Shown piece by piece: positions 1-24,206 of a DNA stretch of 36,559 nucleotides (position 1 is its first letter; each line of letters opens with the position of its first letter). The notes under the pieces were generated by a model that was given only the letters and a program-made list of their open reading frames with translations, was not told the origin of the DNA and did no database searches. Position numbers and translations under genes: made by a program. The stretch covers positions 1 through 36,559 of the forward strand of contig CANJNY010000037.1 in the NCBI GenBank assembly GCA_947475715.1, read 5' to 3'. The stretch is from Prolixibacteraceae bacterium (GTDB lineage: Bacteria > Bacteroidota > Bacteroidia > Bacteroidales > Prolixibacteraceae).

Positions 1-1423
1 CCACGGTGGTATGAGCCCCTGTCAGCGGGAATACGGTTGTGGTGTTGTGATCGAATGTGGAGTTCGTCCACAGTGTTTCGGTATGACAAACCTTACAGTC
101 GGTCGGGAACTTCGCAGCCACATGATTTGGGTTTGTAGTGGCATTGTATTTATCGAGGTGACAACTAACACAGGTTGTAGGTATTCCTGCATAATCTGCA
201 GCATGACAACTGATACAACTTACTCCAATATGACTTCCTGCCAGCGGGAATGTTGTTGCGGTATTGTGATTAAATGAGGACGGTGCCCATGCAACCGGTG
301 TGTGACAAGTCTTGCAATCGGTTGAGAATTTAGCCGTAATATGGTTCGGAGTGGTAACTGAATTGTATTGCGATAAGTGGCAACTCATACATTCGATTGA
401 AATTCCCGCATATCCGTTGGTGTGACATTGAGCACAATCAATATTGATATGGGCACCGGTAAGAGGAAAGGCTGTGGTGTTATGATTAAACGTTGATGAG
501 ACCCAATCTTTATCAGTATGACATAGTTTGCAGTCGGTTGGGAATTTTGCAATTAAATGTGATGGTGTTGTTGTCGAATTATAATTTGATAAGTGACAAC
601 TAACACATTCTGTCGATATTCCTACATAACCTTTCGTATGGCAGCTACTACAACTTACCCCAAGATGTCCTCCGGATAGAGGAAAGGTGGTGGCTGTATT
701 GTGGTTGAATGTGGTCGGAGTCCATGCTATAGAAGTATGACAAATTTTGCAGTCAGTGGAAAATTTGGCAGTTAAATGATTTGGATTTGTGGTGGAATTG
801 TAGTTTGTTAAATGACAACTGCCGCAATCAGTGGGTGTGCCGCCGCTATATCCTGAAGTATGACAACTTGCACAATCAACATTTAGATGAGCTCCGGTAA
901 GCGGGAATGCAGTTGTTACATTGTGATCAAATGAAGAAGTTGTCCATGAATTTGTGGTGTGACATAACTTGCAATCAGTAGGAAATTTTGATGCCAGGTG
1001 CGATGGATTTGTCGTGGTATTAAAATTAGATAAATGACAACTCTCGCAATCATTCGAAATGCCATAATACCCCTTTGTGTGGCAATTTAAGCATGAAACT
1101 CCAATATGTCCGCCGGTTAATGGAAATGTAGTGGCTGTATTATGATTGAAATCTGCAGGAGCCCAGGAGACAGCGGTATGACAATTTTTACAATCAGTTG
1201 AAAACTTGGCCTGTGCATGATTCGGATTTGTCGATATCTTATAATTGGTATTGTGACAGCTGATACATTCGGTTGATGTTCCTGAATATCCGGTTGTGTG
1301 GCAGGCAATGCACGAAACTTCTTTATGCGAACCCGTTAATGGAAAAGTGGTATTCGTATTATGATCAAATTTCGTTGGGGACCATCCGTTAAGCGTGTGA
1401 CAAATAAAACAATCTGTTGGGAA
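1..1423 (-). repeat. Coding tandem repeats, 219-bp tri-haem units
   Basis: About six and a half imperfect copies of a 73-codon unit are visible inside the left-edge cytochrome gene. Each unit encodes three CxxCH motifs and ends near NPxH. Copies differ at many third positions and at scattered residues, so they have diverged while keeping haem spacing. Confidence 0.8.
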
Positions 1424-1939
1424 ATGTGAGGCTGTATGTGAAGGCTCTGTTGTTGCTGAAAATTCTGCTGAATGACAGTCGATGCATAGAGTCCCCATCG
1501 GATTAAATAAAAGTAGTGTTGCTGATTTATGGCACTCATAGCAATCTGCCCTTCCATGTGCTCCGGTTAATGGAAATCTGCTTTGTTGATGGATTTCTTC
1601 GATATTCTCTACGTGCCATGATTGAGGGGTATGACACCTTTCACAATCCTGGCCAACAGTCAATTGGTGAATGTCATTGTGACATGAAATACAAGTGGCT
1701 TTCACATTGGAAAAAATCAGATCAATATGACATTTTCTGCAATCGGTTTTTTGATGTTGCCCTATTAACGGAAATGTTGTCTTTGAGTGCTGAAAAGTTA
1801 TATTTTCAAGCTTAACTGTCCAGTCTTTTGAATTATGACAAGCATTGCAATCTATCATCAATTTATCGCCATGCGGAGACTTGGCATGCACATTAATTGA
1901 GATGATTATCATAATAATCAACATTGAGATTCTGGACAT
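1..1939 (-). CDS. Giant repeat multihaem cytochrome c, 3' end cut by window edge
   Basis: An open frame runs from an ATG at 1939 to the left edge with no stop, about 646 codons, so the C-terminus is missing. The first 20 residues form a Sec signal peptide ending in HAK before SPHGDKL. I count 25 CxxCH c-type haem motifs (CNACH, CRKCH, CISCH, CERCH, CYECH and so on). After an N-terminal six-haem segment (residues 1-172), 73-residue tri-haem units begin at F173. Each unit also carries three extra histidines (in FNHN, GGH and NPxH contexts), which would suit bis-His ligation. The layout matches the 37-haem protein at 4165-6921 almost residue for residue at the N-terminus, so the two are paralogues. 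It lies 533 bases downstream of the beta-barrel gene and may be in the same transcription unit or have its own promoter. A periplasmic or cell-surface electron-transfer role is inferred. No lipobox is present. Confidence 0.9.
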   Translation of the reverse strand, partial: MSRISMLIIMIIISINVHAKSPHGDKLMIDCNACHNSKDWTVKLENITFQHSKTTFPLIGQHQKTDCRKCHIDLIFSNVKATCISCHNDIHQLTVGQDCERCHTPQSWHVENIEEIHQQSRFPLTGAHGRADCYECHKSATLLLFNPMGTLCIDCHSAEFSATTEPSHTASHFPTDCFICHTLNGWSPTKFDHNTNTTFPLTGSHKEVSCIACHTTGYSGTSTECISCHNTNYKISTNPNHAQAKFSTDCKNCHTAVSWAPADFNHNTATTFPLTGGHIGVSCLNCHTKGYYGISNDCESCHLSNFNTTTNPSHLASKFPTDCKLCHTTNSWTTSSFDHNVTTAFPLTGAHLNVDCASCHTSGYSGGTPTDCGSCHLTNYNSTTNPNHLTAKFSTDCKICHTSIAWTPTTFNHNTATTFPLSGGHLGVSCSSCHTKGYVGISTECVSCHLSNYNSTTTPSHLIAKFPTDCKLCHTDKDWVSSTFNHNTTAFPLTGAHINIDCAQCHTNGYAGISIECMSCHLSQYNSVTTPNHITAKFSTDCKTCHTPVAWAPSSFNHNTATTFPLAGSHIGVSCISCHAADYAGIPTTCVSCHLDKYNATTNPNHVAAKFPTDCKVCHTETLWTNSTFDHNTTTVFPLTGAHTTV

Positions 1940-2472
1940 ATACTATAATATTATTCTAATTTATAGTAACTAAATATGAATTAGCTCAAACTTTGATTCC
2001 TCTGGCAGGTATAGGTTTTATGATCTTTCATCGAAGATATATATAAATCTATCTCAATTTATTATTGTTACGTCACTGTAATCTATTTATACTTAGTCTT
2101 AATTTAATTTGTCTTGATTTATCTTATTGTTTCAATTTATGATATTGATAAAGAGATATTTAATTTCGATATTGGTGTATAATTCAGATTGGAAGATCCA
2201 TTTTATTACGAAAATATTTGGATGTTTTTTATTGAAGCGTGAACCGGTGCTAACATATTATTTATTAGTATTTGGTAAAAATAATCTCTTTTTATTGATA
2301 ATTTTTGCATTATACCATTTTGTACAGACCGATTAATGAGATCGTACTCTTTCAAATGATCAATATGGATTTTTTCGGGTTATCGATCTATCTGGAATAT
2401 GACTAAGGTCATAATCGAGTATAAATAATCTACTTCTCGAATTGGTTATCTTATTGCGTTTTTTATTAAGAA
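1940..2472. other. Intergenic region between beta-barrel gene and second giant cytochrome
   Basis: This stretch is strongly AT-rich. I see no convincing gene: the only plus-strand frame (2127-2336) is low complexity and hydrophobic, with no recognisable domain. I found no clear rho-independent hairpin after the beta-barrel stop, so readthrough is possible. A TTTG on the minus strand at 1987-1990 stands about 50 bases upstream of the cytochrome ATG, but no good -7 box follows it, so a promoter is only a weak possibility. Confidence 0.4.
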
Positions 2473-4161
2473 CTATAAGTGGAGCACCTTGGCGAATCGT
2501 TTGTTGTTAGCTTTTATCCCTCCGCCAATGCGATGAATCAGACTGAAATAGATCCGGCCATAATTATTCCCTGGTTCATGGGTCCCTTCAAAGTCTGCAG
2601 AGAGAATTAATTTTTTGGCAATTCTCCATGAAAGACTCAATTCTGCGATGTCCTGACGCAGGGAAGTGTGTGAATTTTTATAGGAATAATTCACAAGTCG
2701 GTATTGTAATTCAGCATAAACCTTACCGTTTATCAGGTCACGGGAGAAAGAAATGCCGTAAACAGTACCATCGATATAACTCGATTTTAAATAGGTCGCA
2801 TTTAGAGTCGCAGTAGTCAGAATAATTGGTACTTGGGTGTAACTTAAATAGGCATAAGCATTAAGGCTTGGTGTTGGATCCGATTTCTGGAACCGATATC
2901 CTCCGGATCCTCCCATATTGAGGAGTTTTGCCGGACGGTAGGTAAATTGAAATCTCAATCCCTGCCTGGACTCTTTGTCGATAATGCTATCTATTTGATT
3001 TTTAAATGTCTCATAATAATATACATTTTTTCTGGCGTCATACGATACAAATACGGCGAGTTTTTTCCAAGGTTTGTACCTTAATGAAATGTAGGTGCTT
3101 GTAAGATCAAGTGTGCTGGTAGCCCTTAGGTTTTTTAGCGTATAAAAATCAAATTCAAAAGAACAGAAAAGATCCAGCTTATTTAAAAGAGAATTGCTGT
3201 GTTGTAAATAGGCAAACTGGCGGTCGGTTTTGAATTTATTCATTTGGTCAAAAACCGCAAGTGAGGTTTGCATGCTTCCATTCTCCTTTTGAATATTATG
3301 TGCTCCAAATATACCAATCTGCATTAGTTTGGGGTTAAAACTGTAGTCATAAAAATCTGGGCGCGATCCAAGAACAGTACCATAGGTAAAGTTTCTTTGC
3401 ATCGTCTCAAAGTGAAATCCATCTACAGCTCCCACGTTGGCCATATTCAGATTTATTTTGCGCCCTAATGTGAGATTTGTATTTCTGCTAAAATCGTACT
3501 TCAGGGCAAGACTATATATCTTCAGGTATTTATTAGGATCATTTCCAATAAGCTTAAATTCATTCGACTTGTGTGTGAGCGAAATGTAACTTTCCAATGA
3601 AAGCCTTGAATTATCAATGTGTTGAACATTCATGGATAAATTATAGCGATACCTCTGATCTGTCTTTGCACCCGAAATCGTCGAATAGGTTGAAAGGGCA
3701 AGTCGACCGTCAATCTGAGACCTATCCCTTTTGGGAACTTTATCTTTGGGAATTGCACTTATCGCCTGATCATTGACAGAAAGTGGTTCATTCGACTCTT
3801 TTCGCACTGGTTCATCCGGCTTCTTCTCGATTTTGATCTTTCCGAATATGGGAGTCGAAATTGAAAGGGAGATTTGCCCAATCAGTGTTCCAACACATGA
3901 AACAGAGGAGAGATTAGTCACTTTTAAGGCAGGGATTAGGTTATTATTACGCGCAATATACAAGGTGTCACTGATATGAATTCCATCAGTATTCGTGAAT
4001 TTTACATAAGCATTTTGTGCGCTTATATACGAAATTGACCCCTTTACTATAATCTCCTCAGTTTGAGCATAGCCGTTATAAGTCAAACAAATAGCAACAA
4101 GAATGAAAAGGAACATCTTTTTGTCCCTGATCCGGCCTGCTATATTGGGAATATTATTCAT
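2473..4161 (-). CDS. Outer-membrane beta-barrel protein of the multihaem cytochrome operon
   Basis: A 562-residue protein. A signal peptide covers about residues 16-32 (hydrophobic FLFILVAICLTY, then GYAQ). Translation may start at M1, three bases after the upstream cytochrome stop, or at M16 (4116), which gives a cleaner signal; I kept M1 for its coupling position. Residues about 35-110 form a small beta-rich domain, and 110-150 are a charged linker rich in K, E and P. From about 150 to the end, alternating hydrophobic/polar strands rich in Y, F, S, T and N look like a 14-18 strand barrel. There is no CxxCH, TonB box or plug. Position directly after two multihaem cytochromes suggests a porin sheath that lets electrons cross the outer membrane, as MtrB does, although I see no sequence likeness to MtrB. 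Specific family unknown to me; the barrel call rests on composition and pattern. Confidence 0.75.
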   Translation of the reverse strand: MNNIPNIAGRIRDKKMFLFILVAICLTYNGYAQTEEIIVKGSISYISAQNAYVKFTNTDGIHISDTLYIARNNNLIPALKVTNLSSVSCVGTLIGQISLSISTPIFGKIKIEKKPDEPVRKESNEPLSVNDQAISAIPKDKVPKRDRSQIDGRLALSTYSTISGAKTDQRYRYNLSMNVQHIDNSRLSLESYISLTHKSNEFKLIGNDPNKYLKIYSLALKYDFSRNTNLTLGRKINLNMANVGAVDGFHFETMQRNFTYGTVLGSRPDFYDYSFNPKLMQIGIFGAHNIQKENGSMQTSLAVFDQMNKFKTDRQFAYLQHSNSLLNKLDLFCSFEFDFYTLKNLRATSTLDLTSTYISLRYKPWKKLAVFVSYDARKNVYYYETFKNQIDSIIDKESRQGLRFQFTYRPAKLLNMGGSGGYRFQKSDPTPSLNAYAYLSYTQVPIILTTATLNATYLKSSYIDGTVYGISFSRDLINGKVYAELQYRLVNYSYKNSHTSLRQDIAELSLSWRIAKKLILSADFEGTHEPGNNYGRIYFSLIHRIGGGIKANNKRFAKVLHL

Positions 4162-4164
4162 TCG

Positions 4165-6921
4165 TTAAACTTTAGGATGACATGAGAGGCAATTGGTACT
4201 ATTATAAACATATCCGGCTTTCCCTTTGTGCTCTGAATCCGTGGAAGCCTGATTATGTGTGTGACATTGAAGACAATTGAATACGGAATAATTTGATGCA
4301 TTGGTATGACATTCAGTACACAAGGTCCATTGTCCATTATGCTTTCCACTGTTGATTCTAAAATATTGGGTATCGTGATTGTATGTTGAATTTGTCCATA
4401 AAGTTATTGTATGGCATGCCTCACAATTAGTTGGAAATTTTGCCGCAGCATGAGCCGGATTGGTAGTGGAATTATATTTTGCCAGATGGCAACTTACACA
4501 AGTGGTCGCTATTCCTGCATATCCTTTGGTATGACAACTGATGCAAGCAACACTTGTATGAGCACCTGTAAGTGGATAGGTCGTGCCGGTAGTGTGATTA
4601 AATGTTCCCGGTTGCCAGGCTGTAACGGTATGACAGGTTTTGCACTCGGTCGAAAATTTTGCAGCAACATGACCTGGGTTTGTGGTCGTATTATAATTGG
4701 ATAAGTGACAGCTTACACAGGCTGTTGATATTCCTGCATATCCGGATGAATGACAACTAATGCAGTTAACCCCGATATGGGATCCCGCCAACGGAAAAGT
4801 TGTTGCTGTCGAATGGTTGAAAGTCGATGGAGCCCATGCCGCTGAGGTATGGCAGTTTTCACAGGTAGTCGGAAATTTTGCTGCCGCATGACCAGGATTC
4901 GTCGAGGCGTTATAGTTTGATAAATGGCAACTTAAACAAGCTGTTGAGATTCCTGAATACCCTTGTGAATGACAGCTGATGCATGATGTGTTTGCATGTG
5001 AGCCTGTTAATGGGAATGATGTGCCTGTGGAATGATTAAAGGTTGCGGGAGTCCACGCTATTGAGGTATGACAAGTGGCGCAATCAGTTGAAATCTTGGC
5101 CGCAACATGACCAGGATTAGTGGTTGCAGTGTATTTTGCAGAATGACAATTTACACATGCTGAGGGGGTTCCTGAGTATGTGGTTGAATGGCACCCGGTA
5201 CAGTTAACCCCTATATGTGCTCCGGTTAATGGAAATGTGGTTCCGGTATTGTGGTTAAACGTAGCGGGTTTCCATCCATTTTCCGTATGACAGCTCCTAC
5301 AGTCAGTCGGGAATTTGGCTGCTGTATGTGAGGGATTGGTCGTAGCATTGAAATTGGTCATGTGACAACTCACACATGCTGTCGGCGTTCCTGCGTATAG
5401 AGTTGTATGACAACCTGTACACGATACTCCAAAGTGAGCACCGGTTAATGGAAACATTGTTTTATTGTGATCAAATGTGGCTGGTTTCCATGCCGCTGTG
5501 GTATGGCACGTTTTACATTCGGTAGAGTATTTAGCTGTTAAATGGGAAGGATTTGTTGTGGCATTATAGTTGGCTAAATGACAACTTATACAATCGGTTG
5601 ATATTCCTGCATAACCTTTGGTATGACATTTTAAGCAGGTTATACCCGTATGACCCCCGGTTAACTGGAAAGATGTTGCGGTATTATGATTGAAATTGGA
5701 TGGCACCCATCGTGTTGTATTGTGACATGTTTTGCAGTCGGTTGAAAATTTCGCCGCAATATGTCCGGGATTGGTCGTGGCATTAAAACTGGTCAAATGG
5801 CAACTTACACAAGCAGTGGAAGTGCCTTTATAACCATTGGCGTGACATTGGATGCAATCTATACCGAAGTGCCCACCGGTCAGAGGAAATGAGGTGCCCG
5901 TATTGTGATCAAATGTGGCTGGCTTCCAGGATGCCTCGCTATGACATAACTTGCAGTCTTTAGCGTATTTAGACGTTATATGCGAAGGGTTTGTCGTAGC
6001 ATTGTAATTTGTTAAATGGCAACTCACGCATTCATCCGAAATGCCGGCATATCCTTTCGTATGACAACTTATACATGAAACTCCAATATGTCCCCCCTTT
6101 AAAGTAAAGAGCGTTGCAGTATTATGATTGAAAGAGGAAGGTTTCCAGCCATTGTCAGTGTGGCATGTTTTGCAGTCCGTCGAAAATTTGGATGCCAGAT
6201 GATCCGGATTTTTTGATGTGTTAAAATCTTTTAAATGGCAACTTACACAGGTGGTCGAAGTTATTTCATAACCTTTTACATGACAAAGTGCACAATCAAT
6301 ACCCTGGTGACCTCCATTTAATGGAAATGAGGTGTTGGTATTATGATTAAATTTTGCAGGTTGCCAACCCTTTTCGGTGTGACAAAGAAAACAATCAGTC
6401 GGAAACTTTGAATTGATATGCGATGGCTTATTCGCCCCATTATAATCTTTTATATGGCAGCCTGAACAACCTGTTCCCATAGGATCAAAACGGAGCAGTG
6501 AAGCCGATTTATGACACTGATAACAATCTGTTTGTGCATGTTGCCCTAATAATGGGAATCGTGTCAATTGATGCATTTGAGTAAAGTCCTTAATAATCCA
6601 TGAGCTGGGATTATGGCATCGTTCACAATCAAGCCCAACCGATTGCTGATGCATATCTTTATGGCACGAGAGACAGTTTGTCTTTGCATTCGTAAATACA
6701 AGATCAACGTGACATAGTTTGCAATCTACCGCCAAATGTGCCCCTTTTAAGGGATAATTGGTTTTGTTATGATCAAAATTGCTCTTTTCAATCATCATCG
6801 CCCAATTATTTGGATCATGGCACACCTCACACTTTATGTTCAATTTATCTCCATGGGGCGATTGTGCAATCGTATTTACTGATAGTAATAAACCTATAAT
6901 TACCGATGACAGTCTGAACAT
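4165..6921 (-). CDS. 37-haem repeat cytochrome c
   Basis: A 918-residue exported protein with a Sec signal peptide (residues 1-20, ending TIAQ before SPHGDKL). I count 37 CxxCH motifs. Six lie in the N-terminal segment (1-172), 27 in nine tandem 73-residue units (173-828), and four in a C-terminal cap that ends NCLSCHPKV. Every unit has three CxxCH plus three further His (FNHN, GGHxG, NPxH), so there is one candidate distal ligand per haem. W in GWKP and Y in GYxG are also conserved in the units. The ATG at 6921 lies inside the end of the upstream cytochrome gene (22-nt overlap), and the stop is 3 nt before the beta-barrel gene, so the three are probably co-translated. Likely role: a long periplasmic or surface haem wire. 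The exact haem order and partners are unknown. It is far larger than typical MtrA/PioA decahaem proteins. Confidence 0.93.
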   Translation of the reverse strand: MFRLSSVIIGLLLSVNTIAQSPHGDKLNIKCEVCHDPNNWAMMIEKSNFDHNKTNYPLKGAHLAVDCKLCHVDLVFTNAKTNCLSCHKDMHQQSVGLDCERCHNPSSWIIKDFTQMHQLTRFPLLGQHAQTDCYQCHKSASLLRFDPMGTGCSGCHIKDYNGANKPSHINSKFPTDCFLCHTEKGWQPAKFNHNTNTSFPLNGGHQGIDCALCHVKGYEITSTTCVSCHLKDFNTSKNPDHLASKFSTDCKTCHTDNGWKPSSFNHNTATLFTLKGGHIGVSCISCHTKGYAGISDECVSCHLTNYNATTNPSHITSKYAKDCKLCHSEASWKPATFDHNTGTSFPLTGGHFGIDCIQCHANGYKGTSTACVSCHLTSFNATTNPGHIAAKFSTDCKTCHNTTRWVPSNFNHNTATSFQLTGGHTGITCLKCHTKGYAGISTDCISCHLANYNATTNPSHLTAKYSTECKTCHTTAAWKPATFDHNKTMFPLTGAHFGVSCTGCHTTLYAGTPTACVSCHMTNFNATTNPSHTAAKFPTDCRSCHTENGWKPATFNHNTGTTFPLTGAHIGVNCTGCHSTTYSGTPSACVNCHSAKYTATTNPGHVAAKISTDCATCHTSIAWTPATFNHSTGTSFPLTGSHANTSCISCHSQGYSGISTACLSCHLSNYNASTNPGHAAAKFPTTCENCHTSAAWAPSTFNHSTATTFPLAGSHIGVNCISCHSSGYAGISTACVSCHLSNYNTTTNPGHVAAKFSTECKTCHTVTAWQPGTFNHTTGTTYPLTGAHTSVACISCHTKGYAGIATTCVSCHLAKYNSTTNPAHAAAKFPTNCEACHTITLWTNSTYNHDTQYFRINSGKHNGQWTLCTECHTNASNYSVFNCLQCHTHNQASTDSEHKGKAGYVYNSTNCLSCHPKV
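4438..6405 (-). repeat. Nine coding tandem repeats of about 219 bp
   Basis: Residues 173-828 of the 37-haem cytochrome consist of nine copies of a 73-residue tri-haem unit (one copy is 72, with one residue lost after FDHN). Unit starts fall at residues 173, 246, 319, 392, 465, 537 and onward. A tenth, degenerate copy merges into the C-terminal cap. Confidence 0.85.
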
Positions 6922-8507
6922 AATAGCTTGTTGTTTTTATATACAGTATACTTTATTGTCTCATTTGTTGCCTCTTTGTGGCACTTTTCACATTTTACCT
7001 TTATGTGAGCTCCTTCGAGTTTAAACCTTGCCAAATTATGATCGAAAATGATTTGTTTCCAATCATCTAATCCGTGGCAGCGTAAGCAATCTGTACGACC
7101 ATTTATGTCAAATTGCCCTTCATGGGTATTCCTGTGACAAGTCACACAATCCATTGAAAGCCCTTCGAATTTTTGTATCATACTCCCATTTTCACCTTTC
7201 CGGTAATGACATTCTTTGCACGTCACCCTTTTATGCGCTCCCTGGAGTTTGAAATTTGTTCGTGAATGTTCAAATTCAGGGGATTTCCAGCTGTTAACAG
7301 TATGACATTCAGTACATTTTTCATTTGCATAATATTTTTCCTGAATAAGCCCTTTGTGATTATTGGCATGACAATCGATACAGGAGCTTCCAGGTATTAT
7401 AAAGCACCACCGCTCTTGTTTCTTATGACATGCAATACATGGTGTAGCCAAATGTGCCCCCTCAAGCTGAAATTTTGATAAATTGTGTTTTTCAATTGAG
7501 TAAAGGGTCTCCGCAAAATCATTATTGTTATGACATTGATCACAATCCGGGGTCTGTCCATTTTTATTAAATTCATTTTGATGATAATCGACATGACAAT
7601 CAGAACAACGATCTGATTTAATCTTTGCAGTTAGATTTAATTTGTGGCATTTTTTGCAATCCAGCGTCTGATGCCTGCCAATTAATTTGAAGTTTGTGTT
7701 GTCATGGTTAAAATTGCCGGTCTCTTTAATGATATGAAATGACTCCTCAGTATGGCATTTTTTACAATCCTGCCCAAACTTATTTTCATGAACATCCTTA
7801 TGACAGTTAATACAGCTATTGAAAAGTAAACCGTCAAAACGCTTTTCGCTTTGACCATTGATCAGGATCGGTTTATGGCATTTTTCGCAACTTACTGTTT
7901 TGTGCTTGCCATTTAACGGGAATTTTGTACCATTATGGTCAAAACCTTCAGCTTTTTTAAAGGTTTCAAATCCATGGCAGTTAAGACAGTTTGGAGACAT
8001 TTTCCCCTGGTGAAAATCTGAATGACACAAGAGACATTCACGATTCAGTCCTAAATACGTTGAATTTTTTTTTCTCAGTTCAGGATCTTTTATATGGTCC
8101 GGCTTATGACACAGTACGCAATTACATCCTTTACAATCTGACTTCAAATGGGCCCCCTTTAACTCGTACCCGGTATTGGTATGATTAAATGTCTCCTTAT
8201 CGAATTTAAGCATTTTGAAATTCCGGCCGTGGTGATCATTATGGCAGGTAAAACAATCTTTACTCAGAAATTCACCTGTTGCATGTAGCCCTTTTTTCAA
8301 ATCAACTCCCGTTTTGATCTCCTTGTGACAATCAAGACATTTCTCTCTGGTCACCTTATTGCCTAAATCATGACATTTTGTACAATTTGAAACCCCCTCA
8401 AGGAAAGCGTGCGATTTGCTCAGATCCCCGGGTGAAATCTGCGCGCTAATACTCAAATTCCCTCCAAGAATCGTAATAAATAAAAATATAAATAGCCTGA
8501 ATTTCAT
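6900..8507 (-). CDS. 20-haem periplasmic cytochrome c (cytochrome c3-like)
   Basis: A 535-residue protein with a Sec signal peptide (1-23, ending SISAQ before ISPGDLSKSHAFLEG). I count 20 CxxCH motifs and many extra His in FNH, FDH, GAH and DHH contexts, so bis-His haems are likely. Unlike the downstream protein it has no exact tandem units; spacing is irregular, but segments of the form F-x-H-N-x-T-x-F-x-L-x-G-x-H-x-x-x-x-C-x-x-CH recur, showing common ancestry. One site is odd: residues 125-134 read CKGCNCVLCH, where a CxxC lacks its His and is followed at once by a complete CxxCH. The gene starts 57 nt after the FAD oxidoreductase gene and overlaps the 37-haem gene. Its place next to the inner-membrane genes suggests it takes electrons from the cytochrome b-like protein and passes them on. 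Confidence 0.92.
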   Translation of the reverse strand: MKFRLFIFLFITILGGNLSISAQISPGDLSKSHAFLEGVSNCTKCHDLGNKVTREKCLDCHKEIKTGVDLKKGLHATGEFLSKDCFTCHNDHHGRNFKMLKFDKETFNHTNTGYELKGAHLKSDCKGCNCVLCHKPDHIKDPELRKKNSTYLGLNRECLLCHSDFHQGKMSPNCLNCHGFETFKKAEGFDHNGTKFPLNGKHKTVSCEKCHKPILINGQSEKRFDGLLFNSCINCHKDVHENKFGQDCKKCHTEESFHIIKETGNFNHDNTNFKLIGRHQTLDCKKCHKLNLTAKIKSDRCSDCHVDYHQNEFNKNGQTPDCDQCHNNNDFAETLYSIEKHNLSKFQLEGAHLATPCIACHKKQERWCFIIPGSSCIDCHANNHKGLIQEKYYANEKCTECHTVNSWKSPEFEHSRTNFKLQGAHKRVTCKECHYRKGENGSMIQKFEGLSMDCVTCHRNTHEGQFDINGRTDCLRCHGLDDWKQIIFDHNLARFKLEGAHIKVKCEKCHKEATNETIKYTVYKNNKLLCSDCHR

Positions 8508-8564
8508 TAAAATCAGTTTTGAATCAATTATTAAAAGCTTATAATACAGATTCTTACTTTATAT

Positions 8565-9896
8565 CTAATGCTTTAATATAGCCTCTCCATACTTTGTTGT
8601 TATTTCAATTCCTATTTTTTTTAGAAATTGAGTTGGCAATTCGCCCCCTGCAAAAATATAAACCAAGTCATTTTCCAATTTCAACACCTCAGTGGACTCA
8701 CCCGTTGAATAAAATACACTTTGTGTTTCAATGGAGTTTACATTGGAGTTGAAAAGAACCTCGATCATATTACTCTTTATCGCCTTATTTATCGCAATTG
8801 CATTTTTGGGTTTTAACCGGCTGAAACTATTGCTTCGATACGAAAGGGTGACTTTATTGTTTTCGGTTAATAACAGTGCAGACTCAATAGCCGAATCACC
8901 ACCGCCAACCACAAGTACTTTTTTATTGCGGATTAATTCCGGCTCCAATAACCTATAGGCTACTTTCTCAGAGTTTTCTCCTGGCACATTTAATTTTCGT
9001 GGTGTTCCGCGTCTTCCTATGGCTAATAAAATGGTTTTAGTCGTATAAACTTCTCCATTATTTACTTCAACTGTAAAAATATCTCCTTGTGGAATTATGG
9101 CATCAACCTTCGAGTTCTCCTGAATCTGAATTTCATTCTTGGTTAAAATGGTATTCCAAAGTGCAAGCAACTGTTTTTTTGATGTTTCATGGAGTTTAAT
9201 TTTCCCGTATAATGGGATATCCATTTCGGAAGTCATTACAATCTTGGCCCTTGGAAAAGTGAAAACAGTACCTCCAAGAGTATCCTGCTCTAAAACAAGG
9301 GTTTTTAAATTGTATTTCTTGGCTGCCAGGGTGGCTGATATCCCTGCCGGACCCGCACCTACAACAATTAAATCATAGGTTGCGGAACCATCTTTTTTCA
9401 ATGTTTTAACAATATTTTCAACAGCTTCACTTCCCTGTTTCACAGCGTTTTTGATTAATCCCATTCCACCTAATTCACCTGCAATAAAGATTCCGGGTAC
9501 ATTAGTTTCAAAATTTGGATTGATATGTGGAAGATCAACCCCCCTTTTTTCAGTTCCAATAAAAAGAGAGATGGCTTCAACGGGACAAGCTCTAAAGCAT
9601 GCTCCATGCCCGATACAATGTGAGGCATTGATTATCGTGGCACGGCCATTCCTTATTCCTAAAATGTCGTGCTCCGGACACGCATCAATACATGCACCAC
9701 TCTTTATGCAGCGGTTTGGATCAACTACGGGATATAAGGATACAGGTTCATACAAACCCTCTTCCTTTGCAAGTATAATTTTACCTTCAACAACTTTTGA
9801 TTCGCGAATTTGCTTCCTGATGTAAATCATCAGGATAACTACAGTAAGTAGAATCGCAAATCCATAGATGATAATTTCCTCTATCAGTAAATTCAT
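8565..9896 (-). CDS. Membrane-anchored ferredoxin/FAD-dependent NAD(P)H oxidoreductase
   Basis: A 443-residue protein. One N-terminal transmembrane helix (residues 6-26) is followed by RKQIRES, which by the positive-inside rule puts the rest in the cytoplasm. Residues 60-110 are a two-cluster ferredoxin-like domain: C63-x5-C69-x3-C73-P and C94-x5-C100-x3-C104-P. In both, the usual second cysteine is replaced (S66, H97). Residues 175-440 are a thioredoxin-reductase-like flavoprotein with the FAD dinucleotide motif GAGPAG (180-185) and an NAD(P) motif VGGGDSAIES (330-339). No redox-active CxxC is present in the nucleotide domain, so it is not a thioredoxin reductase. It sits between the cytochrome b-like and multihaem genes. 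The likely role is moving electrons between NAD(P)H and the membrane cytochrome; direction is not known. Confidence 0.85.
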   Translation of the reverse strand: MNLLIEEIIIYGFAILLTVVILMIYIRKQIRESKVVEGKIILAKEEGLYEPVSLYPVVDPNRCIKSGACIDACPEHDILGIRNGRATIINASHCIGHGACFRACPVEAISLFIGTEKRGVDLPHINPNFETNVPGIFIAGELGGMGLIKNAVKQGSEAVENIVKTLKKDGSATYDLIVVGAGPAGISATLAAKKYNLKTLVLEQDTLGGTVFTFPRAKIVMTSEMDIPLYGKIKLHETSKKQLLALWNTILTKNEIQIQENSKVDAIIPQGDIFTVEVNNGEVYTTKTILLAIGRRGTPRKLNVPGENSEKVAYRLLEPELIRNKKVLVVGGGDSAIESALLLTENNKVTLSYRSNSFSRLKPKNAIAINKAIKSNMIEVLFNSNVNSIETQSVFYSTGESTEVLKLENDLVYIFAGGELPTQFLKKIGIEITTKYGEAILKH

Positions 9897-9914
9897 CTGT
9901 TTATAATTTGATTT

Positions 9915-9986
9915 TTATTTGCCAGATGGAACCTTCCATCCTACATGATTCTCACTTATGAGTTTTTTAATCATCGCTCGTTTCAT
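9915..9986 (-). CDS. Possible 23-residue small ORF
   Basis: An ATG three bases after the cytochrome b-like stop opens a 23-codon frame that ends 18 bases before the FAD oxidoreductase ATG. The peptide starts MKRAMIKKLIS and ends KVPSGK: basic, with one His and one Trp, no cysteine and no membrane segment. It fills an otherwise 93-base gap with tight spacing on both sides, which is what a real operon member or a translational coupler would look like. Length is too short to judge coding bias, so it may be chance. No function is proposed. Confidence 0.35.
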   Translation of the reverse strand: MKRAMIKKLISENHVGWKVPSGK

Positions 9987-9989
9987 AGA

Positions 9990-10775
9990 TTAAAATATCC
10001 ATTTATAACCCATTGTTAGCACAACTATAACATGTATAATCATAACAATTAGCATAATTAAGGCAAAGGGTAAATGTGCAACGTGCCAGTATTTGAATAT
10101 ATTTTGCATGAAATCAAGTCGTTCAATCCGCTTAACTAATTTTCGTTGACTTTTTATCAGCTGCTTAACCTTTTTGTATTCGTTGCGGGAGAGGTTCCTT
10201 GCCTTAATTTCCGACTCTATTGCAATCGTATTTTCCGAATTAAGATCTGAAATATCGATGTTGTATTTATCTTTAAAGGCGATAACCAGCTGGTCTTTTA
10301 TCTCTTCGACCTCATGCAAACTTAACTCCCTGCCTTCTATCGTGCGCGGAATTTGGAGATAAATAAACCTTCCGGCAACACCACTGGCTACAACTGCTAC
10401 CAGACTCCAGAAACTAACCGAAACTATTCCACCAAATTTAAAGGAGGTATGAAACAGAATCAATACCGGACCAAGGGCACACAAAAAGATGTGAAATTCA
10501 AGCCAGTATTTTAATACGCCCCATCTGGAGAAAAATTTAAGCCGTTTGCGGGCCATATAGCTAAACACCCCAATAACGATAAGTAAAGAGCCAATTATAC
10601 CCAATCCATGCCCCAATAAACCACTTGGCTTTAACAATGCATAATCGGGACTGAAGAACCGCTCTTCGATGGGTAGATTGTAAAATGAAAAACCATAATA
10701 ACCCAGTCCTAAAAATGCTGTTATAACTAACAATACATAAACCGATATATAAATACGGTGCACTGTCTGTGTCAT
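9990..10775 (-). CDS. Di-haem cytochrome b-like inner-membrane protein
   Basis: A 261-residue protein with five predicted transmembrane helices (about 8-30, 53-75, 92-112, 116-139, 232-256) and one charged cytoplasmic loop (141-228). Positive-inside signals (RKRLKFF after helix 2, KR-rich loop before helix 5) put the N-terminus inside and the C-terminus outside. Histidines lie where two stacked b haems would need them: H95 and H231/H234 near the inner face, H56, H109 and H248 near the outer face. The ligand pairing is my inference. It is the first gene of the operon. It could carry electrons between the cytoplasmic FAD/ferredoxin protein and the periplasmic multihaem proteins. It does not look like a NapC/CymA protein (no CxxCH), nor like a full-length respiratory cytochrome b. 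Confidence 0.75.
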   Translation of the reverse strand: MTQTVHRIYISVYVLLVITAFLGLGYYGFSFYNLPIEERFFSPDYALLKPSGLLGHGLGIIGSLLIVIGVFSYMARKRLKFFSRWGVLKYWLEFHIFLCALGPVLILFHTSFKFGGIVSVSFWSLVAVVASGVAGRFIYLQIPRTIEGRELSLHEVEEIKDQLVIAFKDKYNIDISDLNSENTIAIESEIKARNLSRNEYKKVKQLIKSQRKLVKRIERLDFMQNIFKYWHVAHLPFALIMLIVMIIHVIVVLTMGYKWIF

Positions 10776-11149
10776 CTGAGCTCTGTTTTATTGTTTAATT
10801 AGAATGCCGGTTGAATGGCTGATTCGAAGAATAAAAACTCTGTTTTTATAAAATTCAACCGGGCTAAACCTTTTAAATATTTCCTGTTCGAATGTATTAA
10901 TTTATATATGTACTTTTAGCCTGTTAATAGTTGAAACCAATAATTTATAATTATTCTTAATATAATTTAATATTTTTATACAAAATCAATAATTTAATAT
11001 GTTGAAATATAGGACATTGAAATTTATGTGTAAAATATTTCTTCGTTGGTAAAATATTTTTTGCTTTTTGTTTTAATCGATATTATTCAAAAATATTTAA
11101 TTTTAACCAGCTGTTTTTTTATATTTACCTGTATAGACACTACCTCTAA
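10776..11149. other. Divergent intergenic region between cytochrome operon and murein operon
   Basis: 374 AT-rich bases separate two divergent operons, so promoters for both should be here. A TAnnTTTG box on the minus strand (11088-11095) has no TTTG at the right distance and is about 310 bases from the cytochrome b-like start. On the plus strand, TATATTTA at about 11120 is a poor -7 match for the transglutaminase-like gene. The clearest structure is the nested inverted repeat at 10807-10862. No gene seen. Confidence 0.45.
10807..10862 (-). promoter_or_regulatory. Nested inverted repeats in the leader of the cytochrome operon
   Basis: Outer arms CCGGTTGAAT (10807-10816) and ATTCAACCGG (10853-10862) match perfectly over 10 bp. 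Within them, ATAAAAAC (10831-10838) and GTTTTTAT (10842-10849) form a perfect 8-bp stem with a 3-nt loop. The whole lies 32-87 bases upstream of the cytochrome b-like ATG. It could be an RNA leader structure or a protein operator. No T-tract follows on the minus strand, so it is not a plain terminator. Confidence 0.5.
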
Positions 11150-12580
11150 ATGCGATTTTTTATTAATTTGAACGTTTTCGTATTATTTATTATTCTAATT
11201 GCTTGTCATAATCCGGTTAAAACCTTCAGAACATTTTCAGCGATTAATGATGCTTTTAATAAGGGTGATCTTTCAATAGCCGTGGTTTGGGCTGATTCAC
11301 TTTTAGCCTTTGGTAATCCTGATTCTGTGACGGTTCAAAAATTAAATTCATTGGTCGATATGGCCGATAGAATCAAGGCCGATTTCTCATTAAGTGGACC
11401 TGAATTTGAAATTAAATTAAAAAAAGAAATAGGTGATTATTCAGTTTCTGACAGGGCTCAATGGGAGCATAAAAATTGGCTGGAATACAGGATAATAGAT
11501 GGGACAAACCATTATTTTAAGCGTGCCATTCCAAATCTAAAATTAATTTTAAATAGCAGCAGATCATTTTCGATGGCTGATCAGGGCTTAGACCCTCAGG
11601 CTGCTTTTTGCCTTGGGCATTCCGCAAAGGTAATTCGACTGAGCGTAAAGAATAACCATCCGATAATTCCCGTTAAAATGAAAGTTAGCTATCGATTGAC
11701 AGTTAATGCTGATGCTGTTCCGGATGGTGAAATGGTCAGGTGCTGGTTGCCGTGGCCGCACGAAAATCATGAGCGACAATCAGAAGTGAAATTATTAAAT
11801 TCTTCTCCGGTTAACTATTCTATTGCTTCCGATTCGGTTGAGCAACGTTCTGTTTATTTGGAAAAGATCGCTATAAAAGGTAAACCTGTAGTCTTTGACC
11901 TTCAGTTTGAATATGTTTCAAAAGCTCAGTATTTTAATCTGAAAAAGACACATGAAGTTTCAGGCAATCATCAGATTGTTAATGTTAAACGATATATGAG
12001 TGAACAACCTCCACAGATTGTTTTTACCGATGAGATTAAACATCTGTCTGATAGCATTGTGCAGGGTATTTCGGATCAACAGGAAAAAGTGAGAAGAATT
12101 TATTATTGGATTAATGATCATGTCATTTGGACCGGTGCATTGGAGTATTCTATTATCCCCTTTATTCCCGGTTACGTACTCTGCAACCAGAGAGGGGATT
12201 GTGGAATGCAGACTTTGTTGTTTATGGCTATGGCACGTTACCAGCAAATCCCCGTCAAATGGCAAAGTGGTTGGATGATGCATCCCGGTGCAGTTAATCT
12301 TCATGATTGGTGTGAGGTTTTTTACGATCGGATCGGCTGGGTTCCGCTGGATATGTCATTTAACCTTCAGAAATCATCAGATAAGGAGATTAAGGAGTTT
12401 TATATCAGCGGAATAGATTCCTATCGATTAATCGTAAATGATGGAATAGGGAGTAGACTTATGCCTGAAAAGAGATTTTCCAGAAGTGAACCTTATGATT
12501 TTCAACGGGGCGAAGTGGAGTGGAGGGGTGGAAATCTCTATTTTAACCAGTGGAATTATCACATGGATGTCCAATATTGA
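11150..12580 (+). CDS. Transglutaminase-like lipoprotein
   Basis: A 476-residue protein. The N-terminus is a lipoprotein signal with the lipidation site at C19 (LIAC). The C-terminal half holds a transglutaminase-like cysteine protease core with a Cys-His-Asp triad: C351 in GDCGMQ, H385 in NLHDW, and D401 in PLDMS. The middle region (about 150-300) is beta-rich and not assigned. It is the first of three plus-strand genes leading to an NlpC/P60 endopeptidase and a dipeptide epimerase, with a 101-nt gap to the next. Such neighbours suggest it cuts peptides or muropeptides at the outer membrane or in the periplasm; bond specificity cannot be read from sequence. Confidence 0.82.
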   Translation: MRFFINLNVFVLFIILIACHNPVKTFRTFSAINDAFNKGDLSIAVVWADSLLAFGNPDSVTVQKLNSLVDMADRIKADFSLSGPEFEIKLKKEIGDYSVSDRAQWEHKNWLEYRIIDGTNHYFKRAIPNLKLILNSSRSFSMADQGLDPQAAFCLGHSAKVIRLSVKNNHPIIPVKMKVSYRLTVNADAVPDGEMVRCWLPWPHENHERQSEVKLLNSSPVNYSIASDSVEQRSVYLEKIAIKGKPVVFDLQFEYVSKAQYFNLKKTHEVSGNHQIVNVKRYMSEQPPQIVFTDEIKHLSDSIVQGISDQQEKVRRIYYWINDHVIWTGALEYSIIPFIPGYVLCNQRGDCGMQTLLFMAMARYQQIPVKWQSGWMMHPGAVNLHDWCEVFYDRIGWVPLDMSFNLQKSSDKEIKEFYISGIDSYRLIVNDGIGSRLMPEKRFSRSEPYDFQRGEVEWRGGNLYFNQWNYHMDVQY

Positions 12581-12633
12581 CCAACAACCTGATAAAACTT
12601 GTCGGTTCATTCTGACCATGATCTAATTAATAC

Positions 12634-12641
12634 TAATTTTG
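12634..12641 (+). promoter_or_regulatory. Possible -7 box upstream of the NlpC/P60 gene
   Basis: TAATTTTG matches the Bacteroidota -7 consensus TAnnTTTG and lies 40 bases upstream of the ATG at 12682. No matching TTTG at the -33 position is seen, so an internal promoter is only possible. Confidence 0.25.
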
Positions 12642-12681
12642 TAAACAGAAAGATTAAATACGGCAATAATTAATTTCATTT

Positions 12682-13848
12682 ATGAAAAATATATTTTCCT
12701 TTTCCCTGGTTTTACTGACCGTTATTTTAAGTTGTCAGTCAAGGTCAGTGGCTCCGCTGCAAGTGGAGATTGACAGTATAACTAAACATTGGGTTCCCGA
12801 TAAGCGGATTGGTATATGCGACCTGAGCTTAGTTGACAGGGGAGGGGCGAAGTTGGTTTTGAAGGGTGAATCAATGTTTCCCGATGCTAAAACAGAGGTT
12901 CTGAAATTGCTAAGCACAAAAGGAGTTGATATTATTGACAGTGTAGCAATCCTTCCGGACAGTGTTCATTATGAAAAATGCTGGGGTCTGATCTCGTTAA
13001 GCATTGCAAATATGAGAAGTAAACCTGCCCATTCTTCAGAAATGGTTTCACAGACGATTATGGGTACCCCGGTTCGTGTTTTGAAGGAGGGTGTTGGATG
13101 GGTTTTAATTCAGACGCCCGACCGTTATATCGGATGGACCAATAAATCAGCTGTTCAGCAGATGAGTTATTCTGAAATCAGTAACTGGCGCAAAGCGAAT
13201 CGGATGATTTACACATTAAGTGGCGGTAATATCTACGCCGATATTGAGCAAAAGATTGTGATGAGTGATCTTGTGGCGGGCGCAATTGTGGTTAAGAATT
13301 CAGAGAATAAAATTATTACCCAGGTAACAATGCCCGATGGACGGATGGGATATGTTCCCACAGCAAACTGGATGAATTTTAATCAATGGAAAGATACTGT
13401 TTCGTTACGAAGTGAACGGATGATTGCCAATGGAAAACAGCTTTTGGGATTTCCTTATTTATGGGGCGGTACCTCTTCAAAGGGTATGGATTGCAGTGGA
13501 TTTGTAAAAACAGTCTGTTTCCTTAATGGTGTGATTCTCGAAAGGGATGCATCTCAACAAATTCGTCATGGAATTGAGGTTGATCTCTCCTCCGGATTGG
13601 GCAAACTAGAGAAAGGAGATTTGCTTTTTTTTGGTTCCAAACAACCATACCGTGTAAATCATGTGGGTATTTATATTGGTGATGGTGAGCTGATTCATGA
13701 ATCAGGAAGTGTTCATGTCAATAGTTTGGATAAAAGCCAACCTAATTTCAATGGTGAACTGTTCGCGAATTTAGTTGGTGCCAGAAGAATTATCGGGGTT
13801 GCACCTGAACAGGGATTTTGGTCTGTGAAAGTTCATCAATGGTATTAA
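12682..13848 (+). CDS. SH3-NlpC/P60 lipoprotein, likely gamma-D-glutamyl-L-diamino acid endopeptidase
   Basis: A 388-residue lipoprotein with the lipobox cysteine at C18 (VILSC). Residues about 100-160 and 175-235 look like two bacterial SH3 domains. Residues 245-372 are an NlpC/P60 peptidase with the catalytic Cys in DCSGF (C271), His in NHVGIY (H327) and a third polar residue H339 in IHESG. Domain order matches YkfC-type enzymes, which release L-Ala-D-Glu from murein peptides with a free N-terminal L-Ala. The dipeptide epimerase gene starts only 12 nt downstream, which supports this substrate. The lipid anchor places the enzyme outside the cytoplasm, unlike recycling enzymes that act after uptake. 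Confidence 0.88.
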   Translation: MKNIFSFSLVLLTVILSCQSRSVAPLQVEIDSITKHWVPDKRIGICDLSLVDRGGAKLVLKGESMFPDAKTEVLKLLSTKGVDIIDSVAILPDSVHYEKCWGLISLSIANMRSKPAHSSEMVSQTIMGTPVRVLKEGVGWVLIQTPDRYIGWTNKSAVQQMSYSEISNWRKANRMIYTLSGGNIYADIEQKIVMSDLVAGAIVVKNSENKIITQVTMPDGRMGYVPTANWMNFNQWKDTVSLRSERMIANGKQLLGFPYLWGGTSSKGMDCSGFVKTVCFLNGVILERDASQQIRHGIEVDLSSGLGKLEKGDLLFFGSKQPYRVNHVGIYIGDGELIHESGSVHVNSLDKSQPNFNGELFANLVGARRIIGVAPEQGFWSVKVHQWY

Positions 13849-13860
13849 ATACATAATTAA

Positions 13861-15003
13861 ATGAGTAGCAGACGTGATTTTTTAAAATATGGGAGTTTAG
13901 CTGCAGGTAGCTTGATTCTTCCGGCAAAACTTTTAGCAACAGAGAAAAAACATGTTTCCAATAAAAAATCGCCCTTTGGAACACCCTTGAATTTACGGTT
14001 TCGTCCTTACGATCTTCAATTAAAGCATGTGTTTACTATTGCGAATAATTCGCGAACCACCACTCCAATCATGCTAACCGAGATTGAATATGATGGTATC
14101 ATTGGATATGGGGAGGCCAGCATGCCTCCATATCTTGGAGAAAGTCATCAAACGGCATCCGAATTTCTCTCAAAGGTCGACCTTTCATCCTTTAGAGATC
14201 CATTCGAACTGGAGGATATTATTGAATATGTGGATAAACTGGCATCCGGAAATCATGCTGCAAAAGCCTCTGTAGATATTGCCCTTCATGATCTTGTTGG
14301 TAAGATATTGCAAAAACCGTGGCATAAACTATGGGGATTGAACCCGGATAAAACACCCAATACGAGTTTTACAATTGGGATGGACACACCTGAGGTGGTT
14401 AAACTAAAGGTCGGTGAGGCTGATATTTATAAAATATTAAAGGTTAAGTTAGGGCGCGAAAACGATAAGCAGATGATTCGCACAATCCGGTCTGTTACCA
14501 ATAAGCCAATTTGTGTTGATGTTAATCAGGGATGGAAAGATCGTCAGATGGCACTTGAAATGATTCAATGGTTAGCTACGCAAGGGGTAGTTTTTGTTGA
14601 ACAACCGATGAGTAAACTGGCAATTGATGATATGGCCTGGCTAACCGAACACAGTCCTCTTCCCATTATAGCGGATGAGGCAGTACAAACGGTTTCTGAT
14701 CTTATGGCTGTGAATAAAGTCTATTCCGGTATAAATATCAAATTGATGAAATGTGGCGGAATGCGCAATGCGCATAAAATGGCGGAATTAGCTAAGGTGC
14801 TGGGGATGAAGGTCATGATCGGTTGTATGACGGAAACTTCCTGCGCTGTATCTGCCGCTGCACAGTTGTCTCCAATGGCTGACTGGGCTGATCTGGATGG
14901 AAATCTGTTGATTAGCAATGATCTCTATGATGGTGTTACCGTAATTGATGGCAAAATAACACTCTCTGATTTGCCTGGAATCGGAGTTAAACCGAATTCG
15001 TAA
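13861..15003 (+). CDS. Tat-exported L-Ala-D/L-Glu (dipeptide) epimerase
   Basis: A 380-residue enolase-superfamily enzyme of the muconate-lactonizing subgroup. The N-terminus has a twin-arginine signal (SRRDFLK at 3-9, then a hydrophobic stretch to about residue 26), so it should be exported folded. Catalytic features: KVK at 194-196, metal ligands D220 (VDVN), E247 (VEQP) and D272 (ADEA), and the second-side lysine in IKLMK (294-297) before CGGM, the dipeptide-epimerase signature. It converts L-Ala-D-Glu to L-Ala-L-Glu, the product expected from the neighbouring NlpC/P60 enzyme. The gene ends the murein operon and faces a convergent unknown gene. Confidence 0.9.
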   Translation: MSSRRDFLKYGSLAAGSLILPAKLLATEKKHVSNKKSPFGTPLNLRFRPYDLQLKHVFTIANNSRTTTPIMLTEIEYDGIIGYGEASMPPYLGESHQTASEFLSKVDLSSFRDPFELEDIIEYVDKLASGNHAAKASVDIALHDLVGKILQKPWHKLWGLNPDKTPNTSFTIGMDTPEVVKLKVGEADIYKILKVKLGRENDKQMIRTIRSVTNKPICVDVNQGWKDRQMALEMIQWLATQGVVFVEQPMSKLAIDDMAWLTEHSPLPIIADEAVQTVSDLMAVNKVYSGINIKLMKCGGMRNAHKMAELAKVLGMKVMIGCMTETSCAVSAAAQLSPMADWADLDGNLLISNDLYDGVTVIDGKITLSDLPGIGVKPNS

Positions 15004-15064
15004 TTCCTAACAAAACCTTGATTCTTAACCATTATCAAAAACGGCATCTATCGTGCCATTGTTA

Positions 15065-16958: not shown

Positions 16959-17124
16959 TTTTATTTATAGTTTACACCCTTCCTGGTGTGGTAACATTTG
17001 TTTTCTCCTATTTTTTAAGATGCAAGAAATTCTATCCAATATTTTCTGCCTGCTTCAGGCAAAAATAACTAATTCAAATGAACCATGGCACTTTACTATT
17101 CCTTAAAAGATGTGAATAAATCAA

Positions 17125-22809: not shown

Positions 22810-22820
22810 ATGGTTTTAAT

Positions 22821-24101: not shown

Positions 24102-24130
24102 TATTTCTTGTTATGGATAAATTTTTGTTG

Positions 24131-24138: not shown

Positions 24139-24206
24139 CAGTTAATAAACCAAATCTCATAAGTACTTTATATCACTTTTGTTGTTAAGATTTCAACGAT
24201 TGTTAA

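Follow-up and report, generated by a model that had tools for sequence, protein, structure and literature searches.

Outer-membrane conduits such as MtrCAB, MtoAB and PioAB pair a barrel with multihaem cytochromes to cross the outer membrane, their cytochromes being decahaem proteins supplied through a CymA-type quinol entry. Clusters of another kind, PCC3, were described in Proteobacteria and consist of a porin, extracellular and periplasmic giant cytochromes, and a five-helix inner-membrane protein (IMP); the main text of that report likens the inner-membrane signature of PCC3 and PCC4 to ferric reductases and to the cytochrome b of bc1 and [NiFe]-hydrogenase, and proposes two b-haems (He et al., 2017; PMC5566968). 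The periplasmic cytochromes of Gallionellaceae PCC3 carry 21, 24 or 27 haems (PMC10734462), and PCC3, a candidate iron oxidase since 2017, is called functionally unverified as of 2025 in PMC12442390. Unnamed putative porin-cytochrome clusters have also been noted in Bacteroidetes metagenome-assembled genomes (MAGs) from a humic lake, where one cluster outside the bins encodes a cytochrome of 51 haems (He et al., 2019; PMC6344600). Here we examine a gene module at one end of contig C37 (bases 1-36559, the whole of which we call the window) from a Prolixibacteraceae genome of 5.77 Mb in 315 contigs, 98.9% complete, whose closest relatives among named records are MAGs labelled Bacteroidia, Bacteroidales, Bacteroidetes or Paludibacter sp. 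By homology and composition the module appears to be a branch, in Bacteroidota, of the PCC3 family of porin-cytochrome clusters, accompanied by an iron-sulfur (Fe-S) flavoprotein that we find tied to the five-helix protein in two phyla. A first-pass annotation of the window had proposed a Bacteroidota analogue without precedent, a view overtaken by the Proteobacterial PCC3 and the Bacteroidetes lake clusters.

The module comprises six minus-strand genes between positions 2 and 10775, here called, in the direction of transcription, cytb, flavoprotein, multihaem cytochromes A and B (MHC-A, MHC-B), barrel, and third cytochrome, the last running off the contig. With their flanks, and with the open reading frame (ORF) and other evidence for each, they are:

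9990-10775, minus strand: cytb, five-helix inner-membrane protein, homologue of the PCC3 IMP (ORF, 261 aa; helices, invariant residues, hhalign)
8565-9896, minus strand: Fe-S/FAD/NAD(P)H flavoprotein (ORF, 443 aa; Pfam, TIGRFAM and YpdA-type structure matches)
6900-8507, minus strand: MHC-A, exported 20-haem c-type cytochrome, probably spanning the periplasm (ORF, 535 aa, 20 CXXCH)
4165-6921, minus strand: MHC-B, exported 37-haem cytochrome with 73-residue trihaem repeats (ORF, 918 aa, 37 CXXCH)
2473-4161, minus strand: outer-membrane barrel with signal peptide and GR-x12-DG motif (ORF, 562 aa; AlphaFold2)
2-1939, minus strand: third cytochrome, MHC-B paralogue left incomplete at the contig end (ORF, 25 CXXCH in the window)
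1940-2472, no strand: 533-bp gap between barrel gene and third cytochrome (coordinates)
10776-11149, no strand: divergent AT-rich intergenic region upstream of the operon (promoter signal not clearly above chance)

These gene types, and the 82 CXXCH haem motifs of the three cytochromes together (20 + 37 + 25), bear out what had been read from the letters alone: 2000 shuffles of each protein's residues gave means of 0.27, 0.47 and 0.31 motifs with a maximum of 4, and the counts are far above chance. Spare histidines exceed the haems in every case (23 for 20 in MHC-A, 38 for 37 in MHC-B, 30 for 25 in the third cytochrome), which fits the requirement of bis-His haems. The close spacing claimed for all six genes holds for the first five, with 93 bp between cytb and flavoprotein, 57 bp between flavoprotein and MHC-A, a 22-bp overlap of MHC-A with MHC-B, and 3 bp from MHC-B to the barrel gene, but not for the sixth, which, given the 533-bp gap, may be a separate transcription unit. 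A c-type haem maturation system was found elsewhere in the genome, as one Cytochrom_C_asm match, CcsBA-like, in a fused frame of about 1034-1040 residues (L052, 4172-7273, contig C7).

Membership of PCC3 is supported by cytb, which has five hydrophobic helices, a long loop at about 136-234, and the signature of the PCC3 IMP, namely two WX3HX13H motifs (in transmembrane helices TM3 and TM5) and SGXXG (TM4). In 17 aligned sequences W91, H95 and H109, S131, G132 and G135, and W230, H234 and H248 are invariant. Both WX3HX13H motifs occur in 41 of 49 Bacteroidota copies and in all 19 Burkholderiales copies scoring above 100 bits; seven of the eight Bacteroidota misses retain both HX13H and lack only the first Trp, and the eighth (L101) is truncated. 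An hhalign comparison with the Burkholderiales IMPs gave E 1e-41. From these residues we infer that cytb binds two b-haems, by predicted pairs H95/H234 and H109/H248 one helix-width apart, and, since Lys and Arg fall mostly in loops 72-89 and 136-234, the positive-inside rule would make the large loop cytoplasmic, with H95/H234 towards that side of the membrane and H109/H248 towards the periplasm.

Searched with the same cytb model, 399 Burkholderiales genomes yielded matches in 27, and we read the neighbourhoods in 20 of the 27. In 19 of these 20 loci a cytb above 100 bits with both motifs accompanies a cytochrome of 24 haems (in 17 loci) or 27 haems (in two), together with a second cytochrome of 10-62 haems, some of these perhaps cut; L139, the one locus read among seven weak-match genomes, has both motifs and no PCC3-like neighbourhood. 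Given the published counts of 21, 24 or 27 haems, we call these Burkholderiales clusters PCC3 by composition. The window module resembles PCC3 in its five-helix protein with the two WX3HX13H and SGXXG, in a periplasmic cytochrome within the range of about 20-27 haems (about 21 in PCC3, 20 in MHC-A), in a variable second giant cytochrome, here the exported 37-haem MHC-B with a predicted surface location, and in the GR-x12-DG motif of its barrel, common with porins of the Burkholderiales clusters. It differs from PCC3 in its phylum, in a barrel of 562 residues and 22 modelled strands as against 715-1002 residues in the Burkholderiales porins, in having 20 rather than 21, 24 or 27 haems in MHC-A, in a flavoprotein gene placed inside the operon, and in MHC-B haem numbers that are mostly quantised in threes.

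Other conduits lie further away. A conserved trans-envelope conduit, as the first-pass annotation supposed, is upheld; its comparators, MtrCAB and OmbB, are displaced by PCC3 as the closer comparison. Geobacter OmbB-OmaB-OmcB differs in haem numbers, with octahaem OmaB and dodecahaem OmcB against 20 and 37, and membership of the MtrA/DmsE family was rejected, TIGR03508 scoring 35-45 bits against a cut-off of 192. PCC4, as described in the main text of PMC5566968, has a porin, periplasmic cytochromes, the same inner-membrane His pattern and additional redox proteins, but its three cytochromes are small (4, 5 and 10 haems), it has no giants, and its inner-membrane protein is assigned to a different family. 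NOX/FRD proteins would work in a like manner, through NAD(P)H, FAD and a two-b-haem bundle with HX13H pairs that takes electrons out of the cytoplasm; in the window, however, the flavoprotein is a separate protein of another fold with Fe-S clusters, the acceptors would be c-haems and not O2, and Ferric_reduct is absent from the Pfam families that the 17 cytb members match at E<=1, even though the HX13H pattern is shared.

In the genomes sampled the flavoprotein was found only together with cytb, mostly within one cluster: in 39 of 39 full-length cases among 395 genomes of the phylum Bacteroidota, in 15 of 15 among 61 genomes of relatives, and in 20 of 20 among the 399 of Burkholderiales. Fisher tests of the association, which ignore relatedness, gave p 3e-53 for Bacteroidota and 3e-28 for Burkholderiales, with four weak Bacteroidota cytb matches coded as absent and seven weak Burkholderiales ones as present; in both samples only the four best candidates per genome were scored, genome G000 is common to the samples, and ten Bacteroidota genomes with partial matches (about 118-433, in longer frames) were left out of the full-length count. 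Across 68 loci the divergences of flavoprotein and cytb are correlated (Mantel rho 0.63, where 500 permutations reached at most 0.18), a correlation to which shared ancestry contributes. In Burkholderiales the flavoprotein gene is present in 18 of the 20 loci, adjacent and divergently transcribed in 17 and 8 kb away in L125, and in the L126 genome it lies on another contig. The system is broader than the first-pass annotation supposed, reaching PCC3-type clusters of a second phylum, and it seems to have the NAD(P)H-linked entry point of its own that was proposed there.

The gene set is likewise widely conserved. cytb matches occur in 44 of the 395 Bacteroidota genomes, 40 of them with E <1e-60; among the 44 loci that we read (39 from this sample and five from relatives, one of these repeating L016), 36 have all five genes, 21 in the window order and 15 with the flavoprotein last. 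Of the rest, four run into a contig end ahead of the barrel, L157 supplies what L102 lacks, and three are not intact: in L085 about 15 kb of other genes separate cytb from the rest of the module (L156, G354, 9616-18048), L109 is cut, and L101 (G200:C56, 9017-10136) is decaying, with a cytb lacking its last helix, a 94-residue barrel fragment and no cytochromes in the stretch read. A contig scan yielded 15 loci, ten of which (L016-L025) have cytb and flavoprotein. Six of the ten hold all five genes in the window order (the barrel of L021 being cut by the contig end), L018 has no MHC-B between MHC-A and barrel, L024 is cut, and L019 and L020 keep only cytb, flavoprotein and MHC-A together, with the barrel elsewhere in the genome beside a 12-haem (L152, 7337-9951) or 11-haem cytochrome (L153, 361-2972). 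In L026, from an MAG of Ignavibacteriae, the flavoprotein gene follows that of the barrel, beside cytochromes, and in the remaining four loci the match is limited to the ferredoxin part. Presence is patchy even in the genus of the window (10/18). In some families cytb and flavoprotein are separated by a gene for a TPR-like, membrane-anchored protein (about 200 aa), as in the five loci read for it (L072, 8790-9377; also L073, L083, L089 and L094); ten loci have a gap of about 615 bp matching such a gene, and by eye the protein resembles CcmH/NrfG-type cytochrome assembly factors.

The flavoprotein itself has one N-terminal helix, two ferredoxin-type Fe-S sites, and flavin and pyridine-nucleotide domains like those of YpdA and thioredoxin reductase (Pfam Pyr_redox_3 2.6e-43 and Fer4_10 3.4e-10; TIGR04018 7.4e-47; YpdA-type structures 7a76/7a7b). 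Its scores fall below the family cut-offs (160 bits against 340 for TIGR04018, 103 against 343 for TIGR01292), and by sequence it lies outside the YpdA/thioredoxin-reductase disulfide reductases, with a fold that is related only. The nucleotide-fold glycines, R354 and K362 are present in all 76 distinct flavoprotein sequences, as are His 97 and six Cys (63, 69, 73, 94, 100, 104); position 66 varies, with Ser in 55 sequences, Cys in 14, Thr in 5 and Ala in 2. Canonical ferredoxin motifs have Cys at the positions equivalent to 66 and 97; the invariant His 97 therefore suggests that one Fe-S cluster is probably His-ligated, possibly as a [4Fe-4S] centre, and the residue at 66 that the other cluster would be without a fourth Cys in most members. 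Unusual potentials, or a 3Fe cluster, could follow from these ligand replacements. The window copy has six Cys in total, all at the Fe-S sites, which excludes there a dithiol of the thioredoxin-reductase type. A related flavoprotein domain, perhaps a sister family, occurs in frames of 783-910 aa in Bacteroidota genomes such as G122, G079 and G239, with the Fe-S part unmatched.

For the barrel, an AlphaFold2 model from 9 sequences (mean pLDDT, the predicted local distance difference test, 71.7) has 22 strands over 149-548 and a small N-terminal beta domain at 36-110. The GR-x12-DG motif is found in 45 of 45 Bacteroidota barrels and in all 9 Burkholderiales porins, these being 9 porin-like haem-less frames of 715-1002 residues from 13 loci. 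That the barrel might be an unrelated transporter was rejected: Pfam gave no match to a transporter or any other family, the best 50 of 1113 Foldseek matches to the model are generic barrels, ushers and porins with template-modelling (TM) scores all <0.5, and the motif is common to PCC3-type porins. Searches of PDB with cytb, barrel and MHC-A returned nothing useful.

MHC-A is nearly constant: of 51 complete homologues, 47 carry 20 haems, two carry 19 and two 23. Its signal peptide suggests that it is periplasmic, and hhalign against the Burkholderiales 24-haem set gave 100% probability and E 1e-99, values inflated by the repeats. MHC-B, by contrast in haem number, varies mostly by whole units. 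Its motif spacing of 33-15-25 residues recurs as a 73-residue trihaem unit, ten of which occur in the window copy, and across homologues the second cytochrome has 10-64 haems and falls on a three-step ladder (10, 13, 16, 19, 22, 25, 28, 31, 34, 37, 40, 43, 46, 49, 58, 61, 64) in 42 of 46 loci, the exceptions, with 15, 24, 38 and 38 haems, counting as a contrary result. The 46 are drawn from 55 loci, the second cytochrome being truncated or absent in L018, L019, L020, L024, L080, L082, L085, L086 and L101, and in the haem counts L076 and L026, with MHC-A split or cut, were entered by hand. Four 10-haem cases (L090, L092, L093, L099) may represent a small protein of about 10 haems that in L091 and L026 accompanies a larger cytochrome; without them the ladder holds in 38 of 42. 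The second cytochromes of Burkholderiales follow no such ladder, with counts such as 62, 54, 34, 26, 19 and 11 falling in all three classes. In Geobacter, trihaem c7 domains are known to occur as polymers, and a weak match to the TIGR04257 'nanowire' family (25-27 bits against a cut-off of 40) points toward likeness to such polymers. Evidence for concerted evolution of the repeat, from a comparison of ten proteins, is mixed: eight of the ten window units best match the same-position unit of the L016 orthologue, and six of the eleven units of L017 MHC-B best match another unit of their own protein. A fixed inner rod with an outer chain lengthened by whole units would fit a rod spanning the periplasm and a wire tuned to habitat.

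The third cytochrome is 58% identical to MHC-B at its N-terminus. Contig C237 of the same genome begins in the same repeat (62% identical), has 16 CXXCH and a C-terminus followed by opposite-strand genes, and probably holds the remainder of the protein, a pairing that would give an intact cytochrome of about 41 haems (25 + 16) if there is neither overlap nor gap. At the third-cytochrome position the relative L016/G010 encodes a cytochrome that a contig end likewise cuts, with 54 CXXCH or more, and the contig probably broke because of the repeats.

We lean towards reading the module, as rather probable, as a trans-envelope NAD(P)H oxidase that sends electrons outward to external acceptors rather than as a quinone-linked Fe(II) oxidase. 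NAD(P)H would reduce FAD (flavin adenine dinucleotide) in the membrane-anchored cytoplasmic flavoprotein, whose two ferredoxin-type clusters would pass electrons to the cytoplasm-side b-haem of cytb and thence to the periplasm-side b-haem; cytb would hand them to the 20-haem MHC-A, spanning the periplasm to the barrel, and the trihaem chain of MHC-B, its unit number depending on species, would deliver them to humics, Fe(III), a partner cell or some other outside acceptor, so that an anaerobe could reoxidise NAD(P)H without quinones. The sequences show the gene content and conserved order, the homology, the invariant His and Cys, the co-occurrence of flavoprotein with cytb, and the ladder; the cofactors, topology and docking of this scheme, its direction, a choice of NADPH over NADH, and the acceptor we infer. 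Outward flow from NAD(P)H is energetically favoured and reduction of NAD(P)+ from Fe(II) needs energy; the route being downhill from NAD(P)H, electrons should leave the cell.

Expression data on direction are mixed. On Fe(II), expression of both PCC3 clusters in Sideroxydans ES-1 goes down (PMC8788666), which fits outward flow and speaks against electron uptake from Fe(II), minerals or a partner cell inward to NAD(P)H; in the ES-1 proteome table PCC3 ranks low to middling (PMC12016527). Uptake of this kind has in its favour that PCC3 is present in several Fe(II) oxidisers (PMC5566968; PMC10734462) and that reversibility of multihaem conduits is discussed in PMC10734462, but the step to NAD(P)+ would be uphill on textbook energetics and inward electrons would oppose the membrane potential, and we consider it improbable. 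A quinone-linked conduit, in which cytb exchanges electrons with pool quinones and the flavoprotein serves as a second input or an accessory, we judge unlikely, if less so: the PCC3/PCC4 model in the main text of PMC5566968 likens the protein to the cytochrome b of bc1 and [NiFe]-hydrogenase, yet a flavoprotein never found without cytb in three samples, and a full-length cytb rarely found without flavoprotein, are unexpected for an optional accessory. Several observations nevertheless weigh against an outward NAD(P)H oxidase. Published authors prefer a quinone-linked protein with inward flow from Fe(II) (PMC5566968; PMC10734462), PCC3 occurs in several Fe(II) oxidisers as just mentioned, the inner-membrane gene of one PCC3 copy in Sideroxydans CL21 rises in the iron-oxidising phase (PMC12442390), and the literature examined contained no biochemistry for any PCC3 protein. 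The AlphaFold2 model of cytb is poor (pLDDT 59.5), comparison with PDB profiles gave no significant match and Pfam only scattered weak hits, so that the b-haems are predicted from His spacing. Porin homology between Bacteroidota and Burkholderiales is remote: hhalign with 45 and 9 sequences gave probability 95.9 and E 6e-9 (reversed controls 0.5 and 1.5), and probability 68 with smaller sets of 9 and 8. Finally, cytb-like proteins occur without flavoprotein in four Bacteroidota genomes (G143, G157, G217, G406; weak, E 3e-6 to 6e-9), in seven Burkholderiales genomes (weak, E 6.5e-14 or worse), in G200, whose locus is decayed and whose genome gave no full-length flavoprotein match, and in the relatives G002, G015 and G021, whose cytb is close to the end of a contig or right at it.

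Two further readings are less likely still. Giant cytochromes need reduced Cys for haem attachment, and a flavoprotein whose best matches are in the YpdA/thioredoxin-reductase family, in operons some of which encode a TPR protein that is perhaps a maturation factor, might be a thiol reductase maturing CXXCH sites; but all six Cys of the window copy sit at its two Fe-S sites and leave no dithiol, on which ground we rejected this role, and the flavoprotein would be cytoplasmic whereas haem attachment is periplasmic, making this barely credible. That the cytochromes are an electron store (a capacitor) or redox buffer instead of a wire would suit their very many haems, and storage has been proposed for PCC3 (PMC10734462); a conserved barrel with a fixed motif would serve no obvious purpose if the store were confined to the periplasm, and we think such a function very improbable. 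Returning to the outward NAD(P)H oxidase, a bolder generalisation, to which we give somewhat less than an even chance, is that PCC3 is a two-phylum family of such oxidases, each with an obligate Fe-S flavoprotein, a NOX-like two-b-haem protein, a fixed rod of about 20 haems measuring the periplasm, and an external wire tuned in trihaem units to habitat. If true, electrons would reach the outside of the cell by a route that leaves out the quinone pool.

Three results appear to be new, in that we did not find them in the literature examined: the flavoprotein that co-occurs with cytb, the homology between the Bacteroidota module and PCC3-type clusters, and the trihaem ladder. The main text of PMC5566968 has no mention of FAD, pyridine or ferredoxin, and its NAD and Fe-S passages are unrelated to such a PCC3 gene; the main texts of PMC10734462 (flavoprotein, NADPH), PMC12016527 (flavoprotein, NADPH, FAD) and PMC13386937 (flavoprotein) likewise mention none of the terms in brackets, figures and supplements lying outside the scope of these statements, and literature searches on PCC3/porin-cytochrome and NADPH oxidase surfaced no paper on such a flavoprotein. 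The published PCC3 model ends at the quinone pool, and a flavoprotein found only with cytb, in two phyla, offers a concrete alternative in direct NAD(P)H-linked export. The PCC3 family is extended to Bacteroidota, and the three-haem ladder provides biophysics with a natural series of wires differing in length.

Scans for regulatory signals in the window gave 50 promoter-like sites where shuffled sequence averages 40.9 (sd 5.9), no clear signal, 8 terminator-like sites against 8.2 in shuffles, and, for a Bacteroidetes-type promoter pattern, 3 occurrences against 2.7 expected. Elsewhere in the genome, contig C155 (L050) bears a second multihaem cluster, with frames of 19, 7, 6 and 4 CXXCH and a 205-aa protein that by eye resembles cytochrome b. 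The module has ordinary neighbours in the window: transglutaminase-like, NlpC/P60 and enolase-superfamily genes at 11150-15003, and genes for TamB, serine hydroxymethyltransferase and a CLC channel at 17125-25982.

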